A DNA stretch of 41,344 bases, taken from contig JAJPHM010000011.1 in NCBI GenBank assembly GCA_021325295.1, positions 1-41,344 on the forward strand. The letters run 5' to 3'. Of this stretch, positions 3,477 through 20,948 are shown piece by piece (position 1 is the first letter of the stretch; every line of letters starts with the position of its first letter). This DNA comes from Nitrososphaeraceae archaeon. GTDB taxonomy: Archaea; Thermoproteota; Nitrososphaeria; Nitrososphaerales; Nitrososphaeraceae. A model generated the notes under the pieces. That model was given only the letters and a program-made list of their open reading frames with translations, made no database searches and was not told the origin of the DNA. Made by a program: the position numbers and the translations under genes.

Positions 3477-3920
3477 TTGACGGTATCTGGTTTCTATTTA
3501 CCATTGTCTTGACAAGAGGTATCTAGACTAGATCTTGTGGAGATAGCTGGAAAGAAATGACTCGGGCGGTAGCCCAAGGCTTCGAATTACATAAAAAAAG
3601 CTGGATGAATATATGACTGTTACACGAAAGCCAAAATATCTGAGAATCCCTGTAGGTTCAGCAAGAGCCCCATTCCCTTTACGAGGTATAGTTCTTCTTG
3701 CCTATCCTACGAGGGTACCTGTATACTACTGGGAGAGGTTCGCTAGTCATTACCAACTTGTCTCTCTTTTCACATACAGGTGCTATCCTTTGGGCCACAT
3801 CTCTTAAAACACTTTTCAGTTCAAAACAAAAATAAAGTATTCTTTCTATCAGTGATAATAATGAAATTGAAGCATTTCCAATAGGCACAATTACTGACCT
3901 GCAGCATATTACAGGCAGTT
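3477..3920. other. Non-coding gap
   Basis: Apart from the 3521-3533 palindrome I see no supported gene. Short open frames on both strands (for example 3613-3807 plus) lack domain features, a promoter or a plausible start context. Confidence 0.5.
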
Positions 3921-11939: not shown

Positions 11940-13013
11940 TTGGGAAAAGGTTGTAGTGCAATTTCCGTTTCGGAAAATGATAAAGCATTCCAGCTGCTCT
12001 GTATTACAATTGAATTGAAAATAGACGAAATAGACAGTGTCATACTTGCACAACTAGGAAAAAATGCACGCACTTCAGCATACGAAATAGCAACCACGCT
12101 GCACAGCTTGGGATACCTGATAACTGACAGGGCAGTCAGGCAGAGGCTAAGCAGGCTAGAAAAGAGAGGCGTGATACTGGGCTATTCGGTCCTTCTGAAT
12201 CCAGAGATGGTATCAGACAAAGTCAGCAGGACTGTACTTATCAAGTTCAGATTCTCCAGCAGGACAGCAGGCCTTGTCCAGGACCTTGCGACCTACTCTC
12301 AGCAGGCTTCGTTTTGCCTGTATTCTGCGCGCATGACAGGAGACTTTGACTGGATAGGCCATTTTGTTTTCGACTCTGCCGAGCAGTACGAGCTTGAGAG
12401 CAATAATTTCCTAAACAGGTTTGCAGACCTTATAGCGGATTACCGCTCGTATGAATCGACAACTTGGAAGGTGTCCCCATATGCTATTGCAGACAATGCG
12501 CAGCTGTCAGAAAACAGGGCCAGAGTTTACGAGATTCTCAAGTTTGTCGGAAAGCAGGAGAGCCTGCGCGACAAGCTTCAGCTTATTGTGGAAAGTCTGG
12601 TCAAGTTCTTGGATGCCGAGTTTGCGAGGATATGGCTTCTGGACAAGTCAAAAAGAACTCTCGTTCTGAAATTTAGCGCCGGCAAATACAAAAATACGCA
12701 AGGCGAGTTTGCAAAAGTAAAAGTGGGTTCTTTCAAGATAGGCACCATAGCAAGCACAGGCAAACCGGTGATAACAAATGATGTTGTGCATGACCCCCGG
12801 ATCAAGTATCCTGACTGGGCAAGAAAGGAGAAGCTAAGATCTTTTGCCGGTTACCCACTAACTCACGGCAGAGATGTCGTCGGCGTAATGGCCATATTCA
12901 GCAAGAAAAAGCTCTCTCCAGCAGACTTTGAGCTTTTGGGAATATTTTGCGACAAGGTATCAAAAGAAATATCTTCAATATACGACGCAAGGGAATATCT
13001 GGCAATAGGCTGA
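11940..13013 (+). CDS. Lrp/AsnC-type regulator fused to a GAF domain
   Basis: The 357-residue protein has three parts. An AsnC winged helix is at about 28-82 (IDEIDSVILAQLGKNARTSA, then RAVRQRLSRLEKRGVILGYS). A RAM-like effector/dimer domain follows at about 85-170 (CLYSARMTGDFDWIGHFVF). A C-terminal GAF domain is at about 195-350 (LVKFLDAEFARIWLLDKS, GKPVITNDVVHDPR, SFAGYPL). The GAF domain probably senses a small molecule or redox state and adjusts DNA binding; ordinary Lrp proteins stop after RAM at about 150 residues. TTG 11940 is the first start, but initiation at the TTG of IELKIDE would remove about 25 poorly conserved residues. Confidence 0.9.
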   Translation: MGKGCSAISVSENDKAFQLLCITIELKIDEIDSVILAQLGKNARTSAYEIATTLHSLGYLITDRAVRQRLSRLEKRGVILGYSVLLNPEMVSDKVSRTVLIKFRFSSRTAGLVQDLATYSQQASFCLYSARMTGDFDWIGHFVFDSAEQYELESNNFLNRFADLIADYRSYESTTWKVSPYAIADNAQLSENRARVYEILKFVGKQESLRDKLQLIVESLVKFLDAEFARIWLLDKSKRTLVLKFSAGKYKNTQGEFAKVKVGSFKIGTIASTGKPVITNDVVHDPRIKYPDWARKEKLRSFAGYPLTHGRDVVGVMAIFSKKKLSPADFELLGIFCDKVSKEISSIYDAREYLAIG

Positions 13014-13623: not shown

Positions 13624-14295
13624 ATGAGCTATTCTGAAGATGATATCAGGCACGCCGCCGAAGTGCGCGAGTGGCTGATAAAACAAATATCTGACAAGCA
13701 AGACGAGATTGAAAAATTGCGTGTTACACTATCTCTGGTTGATAGCCTGCTAAAGCAGGGAAGCTTTAGAGCGGCTGCAGCTCTATCTATACCGCCACAG
13801 AAGGCGCTGGCTGCCTCTGCCAGTGGAATGTCGCAGTCCCAATCACAATCCCAGTCAGCTGCACAGGTTTCAGCTGCAAAAAGAGGAGCTGTGGAGAGCC
13901 AGAAAAGAGAGGAAGAACGCGCAGAGAGTGAAGGCATAGAAACAAGGCCCATCAGGCGCGCCAAAGATAACTTTTTGCTTGCGGAAGCGCAGGTCTCGCC
14001 TGATTCTGTTACAATAATTCCTTCACCCGGAGTTGACCTGAATGCCAATACTCCACCCTTCAAGTCGTTTTTCATAAACAGGATTCTCGAAGGAATGAAA
14101 ACAAAGGACGCTGAAAGGGCAGGGCAGGGAGCACTCAAACAGTCCGAGATCCTCAGCTATGAAGTACAAGAGGACAATGGTGGCGCCATCAAGAAAATAA
14201 CGATAAACAACTACCGCGAAAAGGAGAGGCTAAACGAGATATTCAATACTTCTGCGTGGGTCTTTACAAGGATGCTTGAAAAGGTAGGCAAGTGA
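13624..14295 (+). CDS. Conserved-type hypothetical protein with an SQ-repeat linker
   Basis: Three parts are visible in 223 residues: an N-terminal coiled coil (residues 8-45, VREWLIKQISDKQDEIEKLR), a low-complexity linker with SQSQSQSQSA at about 70-80, and a compact C-terminal domain from about 148 (FFINRILEGMKTKDAERAGQ to VFTRMLEKVGK). The C-terminal part looks like a real globular domain, but I cannot name it. There is no signal or membrane segment. The linker and coiled coil suggest an adaptor or scaffold role; that is inference. It starts at ATG 13624. Confidence 0.85.
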   Translation: MSYSEDDIRHAAEVREWLIKQISDKQDEIEKLRVTLSLVDSLLKQGSFRAAAALSIPPQKALAASASGMSQSQSQSQSAAQVSAAKRGAVESQKREEERAESEGIETRPIRRAKDNFLLAEAQVSPDSVTIIPSPGVDLNANTPPFKSFFINRILEGMKTKDAERAGQGALKQSEILSYEVQEDNGGAIKKITINNYREKERLNEIFNTSAWVFTRMLEKVGK

Positions 14296-16093: not shown

Positions 16094-16531
16094 TCACAGA
16101 GTTTTGTTCATTATGCTCCTCTGCCTCAGAGTCAATACCACAATTGCTATTGTCGAGATAGTGATCATTATTGCTCCAATCCCAATGTGCTGTGGATGGG
16201 CAAGACCAAATCCGATGCCAGAGGCCATGTGGATCTCGTGTGGCGCGGATTTGTAAAAGAACCCAACTCCAATAACCACTCCTGCTATCAGGATATACTT
16301 GAGTGGTACAAGTGCCCTTCCAGCTGCTAGCACAACCATAACAAGGCCCAAGGCATATAGTAAATCACCGACCGGAGCAAGCGACGCTATGCCCGTGTTT
16401 ATTCCAGCAATTCCTTGCAAAACCAGTCCTTCGCCGGCGTATCCAAGTGCAAATCCCACAAGATGCATAGCCAGACCGGTGTATGCTAATTTTGATATCT
16501 GGCCTGCTGAACTGGCGATTCTGTTTTGCAT
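16094..16531 (-). CDS. Four-TM membrane protein (hypothetical)
   Basis: The 145-residue protein has four or five hydrophobic helices (about 15-35, 52-75, 78-98, 112-134) and several His residues in the last half (SAPHEIHMASGIGFGLAHPQ, HIGIGAIM) that could coordinate a metal or a haem. No family is recognised. It lies 96 bp downstream of the PepSY-like gene on the same strand, so it may be read from the same promoter. The same spacing would also allow its own promoter. Confidence 0.8.
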   Translation of the reverse strand: MQNRIASSAGQISKLAYTGLAMHLVGFALGYAGEGLVLQGIAGINTGIASLAPVGDLLYALGLVMVVLAAGRALVPLKYILIAGVVIGVGFFYKSAPHEIHMASGIGFGLAHPQHIGIGAIMITISTIAIVVLTLRQRSIMNKTL

Positions 16532-16627: not shown

Positions 16628-17203
16628 TTACTTCCAGATGCCCCAGCTGCCACCAAACATTCCACTGCCATGCCAGAGTCCGTATCCTGTGGCCATATTG
16701 ATCTGGTTGTTCTCAAGCAGATTTCCATTGCCTACATCGATTATCAATCTATGGATGTTGTTTGAGCTGTCTATCCCGTATGCCTGATAAACCAGATAAC
16801 CATTGACTGGTGCCAATGTGATAGCACCTACTCTTCCACCACTACCCAGCGCTTTTTCAGCCGCACTTGCGGCATCAGCCAAATCGACTTTTACATTGCT
16901 TTTTATTGTATCAATGATCCCAGCTTTCAGCGAGCTGATCGAAACAGTACCTGTCCAGTTAGCCTTGCTTTCATTTCCAGATGTCATATATCCAAAACTA
17001 TTGCCGTTCCATCCTTGCTGCCACATCATCGGCCCCGCATGGTTCCATGGGCCAAATCCCCTATGCGGACCAAACATCCAAGGATGTCCAGCTGCAAACG
17101 CCGGTGCAGGTGCTAGAGCAAAAGCCAGTCCGATAGCCAGAGCGGCAGATGCTACAGCCGCTATCGCAGCGACTATAACGATTTTCTTTGCCTTTGAATT
17201 CAT
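16628..17203 (-). CDS. Secreted PepSY-like protein
   Basis: A strong signal segment (residues 7-36, hydrophobic Ala/Val/Leu) ends at PAPAFAA, a good signal-peptidase site. A region rich in His, Trp and Gly follows (HPWMFGPHRGFGPWNHAGPM), which could bind metal. The mature C-terminal part (about 85-175) resembles a PepSY unit: VDLADAASAAEKALG, AITLAPVNGYLVYQAYGI and HRLIIDVGNG. PepSY domains bind or inhibit peptidases or act in surface stress sensing. The gene has a 30-bp promoter element at 17237-17266 shared with the gene at 18378. Confidence 0.85.
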   Translation of the reverse strand: MNSKAKKIVIVAAIAAVASAALAIGLAFALAPAPAFAAGHPWMFGPHRGFGPWNHAGPMMWQQGWNGNSFGYMTSGNESKANWTGTVSISSLKAGIIDTIKSNVKVDLADAASAAEKALGSGGRVGAITLAPVNGYLVYQAYGIDSSNNIHRLIIDVGNGNLLENNQINMATGYGLWHGSGMFGGSWGIWK

Positions 17204-17236
17204 AGCTAAAAAGTAGATGAAGATTGAATAAAGTAT

Positions 17237-17266
17237 TGTTCACATCTATTACGTAACCGAGTTACC
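17237..17266 (-). promoter_or_regulatory. 30-bp promoter element, copy 1
   Basis: Read on the minus strand, this is identical over 30 bp to the plus-strand copy at 18314-18343. It carries a GTAAC-TCG-GTTAC dyad followed by GTAATAGATGTGAACA. It sits 33 bp upstream of ATG 17203, directly before a TATA-like TTTATT (17228-17233) that is about 27 bp from the ATG. Position and dyad suggest an activator or repressor site next to TATA/BRE. Confidence 0.8.
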
Positions 17267-17471
17267 TTAAGCTTTATCTGTTACTGCTGTCTTTTCTCAT
17301 TGAAAGCATACCTGAATGACTTCCAGAATATGATAAAAAACTATTATTATCATGTCAAATTTGCTCCTGCTCTGTTACGCTGTACCAGAGTCCAGACAAC
17401 ACTAACAATAATTACAACAATTCATTCACTTGATAGTGGTTAAAACGGCAATTGATTTGATTTGATTTAAT

Positions 17472-17795
17472 TTGGTCCATGAGCATCGGGAGAGGATTTA
17501 CATTAGAAAGGACATAATACTCAAGCTTTCAGATTACGGGGAATTAAACCAGAGCCAGCTTATGAGCTACTGTGGCCTCAACAATGTCAAGCACAAAGGG
17601 ATTATTGATGAAATGGTGAAAAAAGGCCTCATAATCCGGACAGAAGAGCCATGGGGCGGCAAGAAAATTATCAAATACAAAGTATCAGAGAAGGGAAGGG
17701 AGCTGGTAAAGGCAATCCTTGAGCCATACGAGCTATTATTTCCGAGAAGCGAGACGGGAGAAGAAGAGAAGGGAAAGGGGCAGTCAATGACATGA
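17472..17795 (+). CDS. Winged-helix transcriptional regulator
   Basis: The 107-residue protein is a single winged helix-turn-helix of the archaeal PF14947/ArnR-like kind: RERIYIRKDIILKLSDYGEL (helix 1 region), NQSQLMSYCGLNNVKHKGII (helix 2 and recognition helix), then the wing with IIRTEEPWGGKKIIKYKVSE. An acidic, Lys-rich tail follows. TTG 17472 is the first start and no ATG is available in frame. It is the best candidate to bind the flanking 30-bp elements. A two-TM protein gene follows after 58 bp. Confidence 0.9.
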   Translation: MVHEHRERIYIRKDIILKLSDYGELNQSQLMSYCGLNNVKHKGIIDEMVKKGLIIRTEEPWGGKKIIKYKVSEKGRELVKAILEPYELLFPRSETGEEEKGKGQSMT

Positions 17796-17853
17796 CGACA
17801 ACAAGTAACTTGGTGCCTAATGTATTTTTAAGAAAAGGCAGGAGAATGCATTC

Positions 17854-18228
17854 GTGAAAGATTCAAACAAAAATGACGACCAAGCAAGTGAGAACATCTT
17901 TCACATAGTCGACGGCATAGTTCAGAACGTAGACAGGACCAAGAGGCTGGTGGTCATTATGCTGATAGCCATTGTGGTATCAATTCCATTATCTTTTCAC
18001 ATTACAAATATCCTTACTGGTCCTCCTTACTTGTTCAGTCCGGCAAGGATTATCATCCCGTCCCTTGTAGTGCTTGCGTTTATAGTCATAGGGGTAAGGC
18101 AGTGGCTTGTACTGTCAAAATGGACAAAGAAATACAAAGCGTACAAGGAATTGCAAGAAAAAATCGATGAGAAATTTGATTTTGAATCAGAGAACAACAA
18201 GTCCGGAGAACCAGGAGCCAACAAATAA
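17854..18228 (+). CDS. Two-TM membrane protein, partner of the winged helix
   Basis: The 124-residue protein starts at GTG 17854. It has a charged N-terminus (1-30), two TM helices (about 32-52 and 66-87) and a charged helical C-terminus (WTKKYKAYKELQEKIDEKFD). No family is recognised. Its place directly after the winged-helix gene recalls the ArnR type, in which a winged helix and two TM helices are on one chain; here they are separate proteins. It may tether or signal to the regulator. Confidence 0.82.
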   Translation: MKDSNKNDDQASENIFHIVDGIVQNVDRTKRLVVIMLIAIVVSIPLSFHITNILTGPPYLFSPARIIIPSLVVLAFIVIGVRQWLVLSKWTKKYKAYKELQEKIDEKFDFESENNKSGEPGANK

Positions 18229-18313
18229 TAAAACAAAGATAGATTCCACTGCTCTGCCAATATGAGTTCCCTTGCTTGATTATGAAGGTATTCTGATCGA
18301 GCCGGATCCTCTA

Positions 18314-18343
18314 GGTAACTCGGTTACGTAATAGATGTGAACA
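18314..18343 (+). promoter_or_regulatory. 30-bp promoter element, copy 2
   Basis: Identical over 30 bp to copy 1 but in the opposite orientation. It ends 34 bp before ATG 18378, and a TATA-like TTATAAC at 18347-18353 is about 28 bp from the ATG. The same geometry at both genes is hard to explain by chance. Confidence 0.8.
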
Positions 18344-18377
18344 AATGTTATAACAGAAATTCTGGCTTTATGCAAAT

Positions 18378-18878: not shown

Positions 18879-20948
18879 GTGGCGAGTATCTTTCTGAGAA
18901 ACACAATAGTGATTCTTGCGATTATAGCAACAACTACAATTGTCCTCGGGGTAATTTCTGCATCGTACTCTGCAGGAATAATTGATAGTATCAAAAGTTC
19001 CGCTACAGACAAGGTCAGGGCCTCAACAAATGATAAAGCGATTATACTGTCGGACAGGATGAGCGCAAAATTCACAGATATTTTCCATAACCTCCAGATA
19101 ATTTCTGATGGACCTTCGGTTCATGCAGCTCTTCGTTCTGGAGATTTTTCATCCGCAGACCCTTTGCTGAGATCAGGCCAGCAGACGACTGGCAATATTA
19201 CAGATAGCTATAACATGATAGACAGGAATGGCAGGATAGTCTGGACAGCTGGATCCGGGAACTCTGGTAAAACCAGTCAAGGAATTATCGGACAGGATTT
19301 TAGCCTCACCAAGTGGTTCACCTACCTGAGAGATAATAAACAACCATATATCGCAGTACAGTCCGGAAAATCAGAGGACAATGCAGAAGCTGGATCGTTA
19401 CCGGATAGCTATGTTATCGCTTACCCAGTGTTAGAACAAGAAAACACAAGCTTTCAGGGTGCAGTATACACAGTTGTTCCTTTTGAGAAAATCAATTCAT
19501 TCACTTCGAATTTTATAAATTTAGGACTTTCTGATACGAATGCATCCCTGATCGACAATCAAGGGGATATCATAGCATCAACCATCAGCGCAAACCTAGG
19601 ACACAATATCTATGATCCTCAATTCTTGTCTGCAAGGCTTCCCAAAGTTATTACAAATGAAACACAGACTTCTAATTTTTTGAGATTTATGAGAGAAGGG
19701 CTTGTCCAGAATAACACAGGCGTTGCAGACTTTGAGCTGTATGGAAAGGCTGCTGCTCTTGCATATGCGCCTGTGATGGTTAATAATGTAAGGGTTATGA
19801 CCGCATATACATCAGCTCAATATTTCTTTGCTCTTGATGTAGCTTCTGCGATACAGCACCAAGCAGAACTGAATGCCATTTTCATTACAACCATCGGAGC
19901 CTCTGCTCTTGCAGCATCAATTGTCGTGCTTACTTGGAACAAGCGCCTGAAACTGCTGGTAGGTGCCAGAACCAAAGAACTCCAGTCGTCAAATGAGTCC
20001 CTTGAGACTCGGACAAAGGAGCTCAATAAGGCGAACGAAATTCTTTTAGAGAAAACCGATATGCTAGAAAAGATGACAAAGTCTCTTGAGAAGCTCAATG
20101 AGGAGCTTGCTGTATCCAACAAGCGGCTGGAAGCGGCTAATGAGCAGCTGAAAGCTCATGACGAGAACCAGCGTGAGTTTATCAACATTGCAGCACACGA
20201 GCTTCGAACTCCGATTATGCCTATCCTAGGGGTCGCTGACTCGCTTGAAAATGCAGCTAAAAACGATAGTGGTCAGGACATCAGGCTGTCCAAGCCGGAG
20301 CTTGACATGTTAATTCGAAACGCAAAGAAACTGCTGAATCTGTCGTCTGATATTTTGCATGTGGCCAGAATAGATAGCAATTCGCTTGAGCTGAAAAAAG
20401 AGTCTGTTGACCTAAATGACTTGGTGGCAGATGCTGTAATGGATGCCGAGAAAAGCCTGCCAAAAGGCAGCGATGTGATTGTAGATTTTGAGCCATTAGC
20501 AACCGGCATCATGGTACAAGCTGACAGGTCAAAGCTCATGGAGGTGTTATCTAATCTTCTGAATAATGCAATCAAGTTCACCAGCAGTGGCACAATTAAA
20601 GTTGTAACTGACAGGCAAGGACACATAGACGCCGCAAGGGCTCTTAATGACAATACAGCACTGGTTCAGGTAATAGATACAGGTAAAGGAATTGATCCTA
20701 CGGTGATGCCAAAGCTATTCACAAAGTTCACAACAAAGCCTGAAACAGGTGGAACAGGGCTAGGATTGTACATATCAAAGGCAATCATAGAGGCACACGG
20801 GGGCAGAATATGGGCCGAGAACAACAAAGATAGAAGTGGTGCAATATTTTCATTTGCTCTTCCGCTTGCTTCTGAAGCAGCCACCAGTAGCGGTATCAGG
20901 CCAGATAGTCAAAGCATTGCAGAGATAGATGACGGTGAAGTTAAGTGA
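18879..20948 (+). CDS. dCache sensor histidine kinase
   Basis: The 689-residue protein starts at GTG 18879. TM1 is at about 5-30, an extracytoplasmic dCache domain at about 35-310, TM2 at about 325-348, then a long coiled coil (about 350-425). The HisKA box INIAAHELRTPIMPIL has phospho-His440. The ATPase domain carries the N box LNNAIKFT, G1 VIDTGKGID and G2 TGGTGLGLYISK, all intact. It would autophosphorylate in response to an external ligand and pass phosphate to a receiver, most likely the double-receiver protein encoded about 180 bp downstream. The ligand is not deducible. Confidence 0.95.
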   Translation: MASIFLRNTIVILAIIATTTIVLGVISASYSAGIIDSIKSSATDKVRASTNDKAIILSDRMSAKFTDIFHNLQIISDGPSVHAALRSGDFSSADPLLRSGQQTTGNITDSYNMIDRNGRIVWTAGSGNSGKTSQGIIGQDFSLTKWFTYLRDNKQPYIAVQSGKSEDNAEAGSLPDSYVIAYPVLEQENTSFQGAVYTVVPFEKINSFTSNFINLGLSDTNASLIDNQGDIIASTISANLGHNIYDPQFLSARLPKVITNETQTSNFLRFMREGLVQNNTGVADFELYGKAAALAYAPVMVNNVRVMTAYTSAQYFFALDVASAIQHQAELNAIFITTIGASALAASIVVLTWNKRLKLLVGARTKELQSSNESLETRTKELNKANEILLEKTDMLEKMTKSLEKLNEELAVSNKRLEAANEQLKAHDENQREFINIAAHELRTPIMPILGVADSLENAAKNDSGQDIRLSKPELDMLIRNAKKLLNLSSDILHVARIDSNSLELKKESVDLNDLVADAVMDAEKSLPKGSDVIVDFEPLATGIMVQADRSKLMEVLSNLLNNAIKFTSSGTIKVVTDRQGHIDAARALNDNTALVQVIDTGKGIDPTVMPKLFTKFTTKPETGGTGLGLYISKAIIEAHGGRIWAENNKDRSGAIFSFALPLASEAATSSGIRPDSQSIAEIDDGEVK

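Follow-up and report, generated by a model that had tools for sequence, protein, structure and literature searches.

The DNA analysed here, referred to as the window, is a 41,344 nt stretch from a Nitrososphaeraceae archaeon of the soil-dwelling, ammonia-oxidizing type (GenBank contig JAJPHM010000011.1). It includes two identical sequences in mirror orientation that flank two small genes, one for a putative winged-helix regulator and one for a protein with two transmembrane segments (2-TM). The question raised by this locus is whether these arms are operators of a local regulon, recombination sites of an invertible segment or the ends of a mobile element.

The initial annotation recorded the 30 nt at 17237-17266 as the exact reverse complement of 18314-18343. 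This is correct, and the exact inverted repeat is in fact longer, namely 32 nt (17236-17267 and 18313-18344), and bounds a segment of 1109 bp. Outside the arms the identity ends sharply, with agreement at 3/10 and 9/35 positions. The arms are the sole inverted repeat of at least 24 nt detected in the 41 kb window, and shuffled windows contained no arm matches with ≤3 mismatches. A direct repeat of 48 nt (94 % identical) is also present in the window, at 1573-1620 and 2389-2436, 816 nt apart. The exact 32 nt arms were found nowhere else in the 2.69 Mb genome, and a 17 nt arm core, allowing ≤2 mismatches, occurred at two places, both at these arms. Many unrelated copies of the 30-mer would have spoken against a local role, as the initial annotation noted; the genome has two copies. 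None of 69 further genomes in the family contained a 25 nt version of the arm, allowing ≤3 mismatches. The outward-facing ATG codons, at 17203 (-) and 18378 (+), are indeed 33 and 34 nt from the arms, and the dyad GTAAC-TCG-GTTAC is seen in both arms. However, of the TATA-like boxes that had been assigned to the arms, the right one is clear and the left one is weak (Table 1).

Table 1. Features of the cassette and its surroundings, in window coordinates
Feature	Position	Strand	Remarks
Small four-TM protein, beyond the PepSY gene	16094..16531	-	L099, L109 and L110 have a homologue in this neighbourhood
Putative target 1: secreted or membrane-anchored PepSY-like protein, 191 aa	16628..17203	-	Pfam PF03413, under the curated cut-off
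Weak TATA-like box TTTATTC, PepSY arm	17226..17232	-	At the conserved offset, +33 to +39 from dyad start
Class A promoter module of the PepSY gene (putative)	17236..17267	-	Dyad 17253-17265, spacer, GTGAACAA; exact copy of 18313-18344
Putative winged-helix regulator, 107 aa, TTG start	17472..17795	+	PF14947 HTH_45, 26.6 bits against a gathering cut-off of 25.5
Putative class B operator GTAACTTGGTGCC	17805..17817	+	36 nt upstream of the 2-TM gene
2-TM partner protein, 124 aa, GTG start	17854..18228	+	Conserved motif RQWxVLSKWTKKYxxYKELQxKID after TM2
Class A promoter module of the four-TM gene (putative)	18313..18344	+	Dyad 18315-18327, spacer GTAATAGAT, GTGAACAA
TATA box TTATAAC, four-TM arm	18348..18354	+	At the conserved offset
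Putative target 2: four-TM membrane protein, 128 aa	18378..18764	+	Homologues in Nitrososphaera-type genomes also have this module
dCache sensor histidine kinase, downstream of target 2	18879..20948	+	

The motif that follows TM2 of the 2-TM protein is presumed to be cytoplasmic, and the predicted model of this protein is of modest confidence. The histidine kinase gene is possibly co-transcribed with the four-TM gene, and a homologue of it lies near the cassette in two other loci, L099 and L109. Elsewhere in the window, an AsnC-like HTH fused to a GAF domain (11940-13013) may be a ligand-sensing regulator, and long open frames of 223 aa and 169 aa overlap on both strands at 13624-14138.

In the DNA surrounding the cassettes of relatives, the dyad GTAACNNNGTTAC recurs at one fixed place and is followed by a 9 nt spacer, GTNAACAA, the TATA box and the start codon. 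This arrangement is referred to as the class A module. Searched as a composite pattern with ≤1 mismatch, it occurred 58 times in 37/70 genomes of the family, compared with two occurrences for the reversed control, and across the order it was found in 48/250 genomes (reversed control, four matches). As the bare dyad showed no genome-wide enrichment over its reversed control, only the composite module together with its position is informative. The site profile is an alignment of 55 module sites with a reading frame at the right place. It includes a conserved block from -1 to +29 (dyad, GT, spacer and GGTNAACAA) and the TATA box at +33 to +41, and the distance from dyad to start codon is 49 nt in 27 sites and 48-55 nt in 53 of the 55. 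In these coordinates, the arms in the window span -2 to +29, that is, the module and nothing more. Approximately 30 bp separate the centre of the class A dyad from the TATA centre downstream of it, and the dyad overlaps neither the TATA box nor the start codon. With approximately 26 nt between the TATA centre and the start codon, transcripts with almost no leader are expected.

A further site, missed by the initial annotation, precedes the 2-TM gene, at 17805-17817 (class B). L235 has the identical site and L248 and L250 have near-identical ones, and in most cassettes a class B dyad is located 33-49 nt before the start of the 2-TM gene. It was exact in 20/40 cassettes (shuffled expectation 0) and present with ≤2 mismatches in 30/40, where shuffling predicts about 1. 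The right half is often GTGCC in the clade that includes the window, and the dyad is nearer to the TATA box than the class A dyad. The window thus has three sites in total, and the 2-TM gene is itself a member of the predicted regulon.

A local regulon with a GTAAC-N3-GTTAC operator had been proposed for this locus, and the proposal is strengthened by finding the same module, at the same spacing, with the same winged-helix/2-TM pair in dozens of genomes of related archaea. The same operator stands at a fixed promoter distance before each target, and this is conserved across genomes, where the targets are membrane or secreted proteins and most of the modules adjoin paralogues of the pair. From the sequence evidence, the arms are very probably a pair of outward-facing operators close to promoters, and the regulon that they serve would be local and governed by the winged-helix protein whose gene lies between them. 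As the element recurs with the same spacing, it would mark a whole family of gene switches that has not been described.

A possible mechanism is as follows. A homodimer of the winged-helix protein would bind the dyad, perhaps with a second unit on the GTNAACAA half, and the bound dimer, upstream of BRE/TATA, would recruit basal factors. From this position alone, which is the usual one for archaeal activators, we infer activation and not repression. The regulator would control the PepSY gene, the 2-TM gene and the four-TM gene, perhaps with the histidine kinase gene that follows the latter. As a partner at the membrane, the 2-TM protein would hold or release the regulator and so provide feedback; that it tethers or releases the regulator is a guess from the gene pairing and the strong conservation of the helix after TM2. 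Alternatively, the winged-helix protein could be a repressor, with dimers that block access of TFB/TBP until a membrane signal relieves them. Its fold matches those of the MarR/PadR type, which are often repressors, and the class B dyad is the closer of the two classes to the TATA box. However, the class A dyad lies clear of the TATA box and start codon, and we consider repression unlikely, although it is the most serious of the alternatives.

Which protein reads the module was addressed via the spacer, for which there are three types: alpha, GTGTCATRG; beta, GTAGGACAG; and gamma, GTAATAGAT/GTAATACAG, the type in the window. Gamma modules with the spacer of the window or variants of it occur in other genomes, including named metagenome-assembled genomes (MAGs). 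Named MAGs carry the same or similar spacers, and the notion that the spacer of the window is idiosyncratic was dropped. On a tree of 90 winged-helix proteins, with spacer labels for 24 alpha, 6 beta and 7 gamma, spacer type requires two changes, which is the minimum, compared with a mean of 12.2 for shuffled labels. Residue 5 of the winged-helix protein is Tyr in 24/24 of the alpha group, and His in all of the beta group and 6/7 of the gamma group. The beta regulators also have one additional residue in the wing. As spacer type tracks the winged-helix clade, the winged-helix protein is the likely reader and hence the likely binder of the module. However, the correlation with clade includes few independent changes, and another linked factor could therefore be the binder.

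It is also conceivable that a genuine module is recognized by some other protein, such as a TFB paralogue or a regulator encoded elsewhere, and that the winged-helix gene is a passenger under the same control. In favour of this, PepSY genes unlinked to a cassette carry the module too. However, alpha and beta cassettes coexist within single genomes, and spacer type follows the winged-helix clade there as well, with different types for different cassettes; the sites also adjoin the winged-helix/2-TM pair. A reader other than the winged-helix protein is therefore improbable. If the winged-helix protein is the reader, the cassettes could be viewed as a large paralogous family of membrane-coupled regulators (winged helix plus 2-TM) in the Nitrososphaerales that share one core operator, are insulated within one cell by clade-specific spacers read by N-terminal residue 5 and the wing, and have local copies kept identical by gene conversion. 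We put this composite proposal forward tentatively, as possible rather than probable.

Relatives of the winged-helix protein were found in 39/61 genomes searched and relatives of the 2-TM protein in 37/61. They are often adjacent, in several copies, and many are beside PepSY or four-TM genes. Close homologues among the named loci come from Nitrososphaera and Nitrosocosmicus, which places the genome in a family of this type, and the genome sets searched included no second member of the genus to which the window belongs. The module-bearing genes beside the pair encode PepSY-like proteins (21), four-TM proteins (8), SRPBCC/polyketide-cyclase-like secreted proteins (7), cupredoxins (4) and others, and most of these target families point to the cell surface. 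The genome that includes the window has an alpha cassette in addition to the gamma cassette, and the alpha module (L090:3653, contig 51) is found with a paralogous pair and faces an ABC-transporter ATPase-like gene that lacks a clear ATG start. In a Nitrosopumilus-type genome, three identical modules on the same strand (L298:1936, 2434 and 4705, all -) lie within 2.8 kb and precede genes for a long coiled-coil-like repeat protein, a 50 aa ORF and a 224 aa secreted protein. A second winged-helix clade (L267-L313, e.g. L293; Nitrosotalea etc., approximately 36 rows) had none of these operator sites, and the association with the module is thus not universal for the winged-helix family.

Mirrored modules flank the pair in the window and in L101/L249, L103, L104, L105/L251, L117 (where one of the two sites is weak), L119 and L208/L242. 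Each of the four largest target clusters is found on one side of the pair in some genomes and on the other side in others, indicating that gene order has been rearranged in evolution. Mirrored arms are identical in the window (30/30) and in L101, where the exact match is 57 nt, but in none of the other loci. Exact module identity was found in 2/9 within-locus pairs versus 5/2071 between loci (Fisher P=3.5e-4), a count that rests on two loci. Within-locus pairs were generally no more alike than between-locus pairs, and homogenization is therefore claimed for the exact pairs alone. As the same or similar spacers are found elsewhere, constraint by a shared reader explains part of the identity of the arms, and it accounts for most of the arm similarity. 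A further, probable cause of the exact identity is local homogenization, recent duplication or gene conversion. In L101, the 57 nt exact inverted repeat (2574-2630 and 3810-3866) includes the module and flanks the winged-helix/2-TM pair, and the identity extends across the TATA box and into the sequence that follows, which suggests recent conversion or inversion.

The initial annotation had also remarked that the repeats could permit inversion. In such a case, recombination between the arms would flip a phase-variable segment with the regulator pair in it. The exact, mirrored arms and the pair in L101 are in keeping with this, as are the positions of the main target families on either side of the pair; for example, the PepSY gene is on the 2-TM side in L208/L242 and on the winged-helix side in the window. 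Thus, the remark is upheld to the extent that target order is rearranged between genomes. However, the differing orders may stem from separate gene gains, the arms are promoter modules with conservation of their own, and in other loci the two members of several mirrored pairs differ in sequence. No recombinase was recognized in a Pfam scan of 29 window proteins, which for the overlapping frames at 13624-14138 took in the plus-strand one. A flip between the arms also leaves both outward promoters intact, and inversion would consequently be no switch for the PepSY and four-TM genes. We regard an invertible switch as very unlikely. A small mobile element with 32 nt terminal inverted repeats, suggested by the 1109 bp between exact inverted repeats, is so improbable that it can be dismissed, as there is no transposase between the arms, the segment is single copy in the genome, there is no convincing target-site duplication (AT/AT only), the 'ends' in other genomes are at a fixed distance from a start codon without being terminal repeats, and modules are repeated on the same strand in L225, L207 and L298. 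Both the mobile element and the recombinase-driven switch were therefore rejected.

A literature search on the motif, PF14947 and Nitrososphaera regulons retrieved no description of this system and no winged-helix regulon. Regulators with palindromic operators are of a known kind; the composite, clade-specific and membrane-paired form in the Nitrososphaerales was not found in the literature searched. Sequence-specific control of transcription in ammonia-oxidizing archaea is poorly charted, and here, for many genomes, sequence alone provides a candidate regulator, its operators at base resolution, the promoter geometry and the putative targets (PepSY, cupredoxin, SRPBCC and small membrane proteins). 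The three spacer types represent a natural experiment on how cross-talk is avoided among paralogous archaeal regulators.

Promoter motifs reported for copper limitation in N. viennensis, TTCSGSMTTTGWACYANT and RATTTAAABATAGATTTAAATAATAAS (PMC7785015), are likewise short, lie upstream of start codons and come from the same order of archaea, but their consensus sequences are unlike the module described here. The winged-helix protein belongs to PF14947, and its predicted fold (pLDDT 86) matches structures of MarR, PadR, Sso10a-2 and AspA, which is consistent with a dimer on the dyad. With PF14947/Sso10a-type proteins it shares a small, single-domain winged helix, and Sso10a-2 (4hw0) is among the fold matches. 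However, it scored 27 bits against a cut-off of 60 for the Sso10a chromatin proteins (NF053610, NCBIfam) and falls outside that family; Sso10a is a chromatin protein by its NCBIfam name, whereas the window has sequence-specific, promoter-positioned putative sites and a gene for a 2-TM partner. The best fold match by E-value is the pNOB8 centromere-binding protein AspA (4rs8 and 5k5q; TM 0.56-0.58 by query length), but the gene in the window is a chromosomal regulator gene with promoter sites, and there are no partition genes among the scanned neighbours. MarR/PadR regulators, which have palindromic operators and are often in divergent arrangement, are alike in fold and in having a dyad operator beside the regulator gene. 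The resemblance to MarR is one of fold only, as the score against PF01047 was 18.1 bits (cut-off 24.6). In contrast to these regulators, the dyad in the window precedes the TATA box and forms part of a composite module in which the spacer is clade-specific, and the partner of the putative regulator is a membrane protein, the gene for which has a site in its own promoter.
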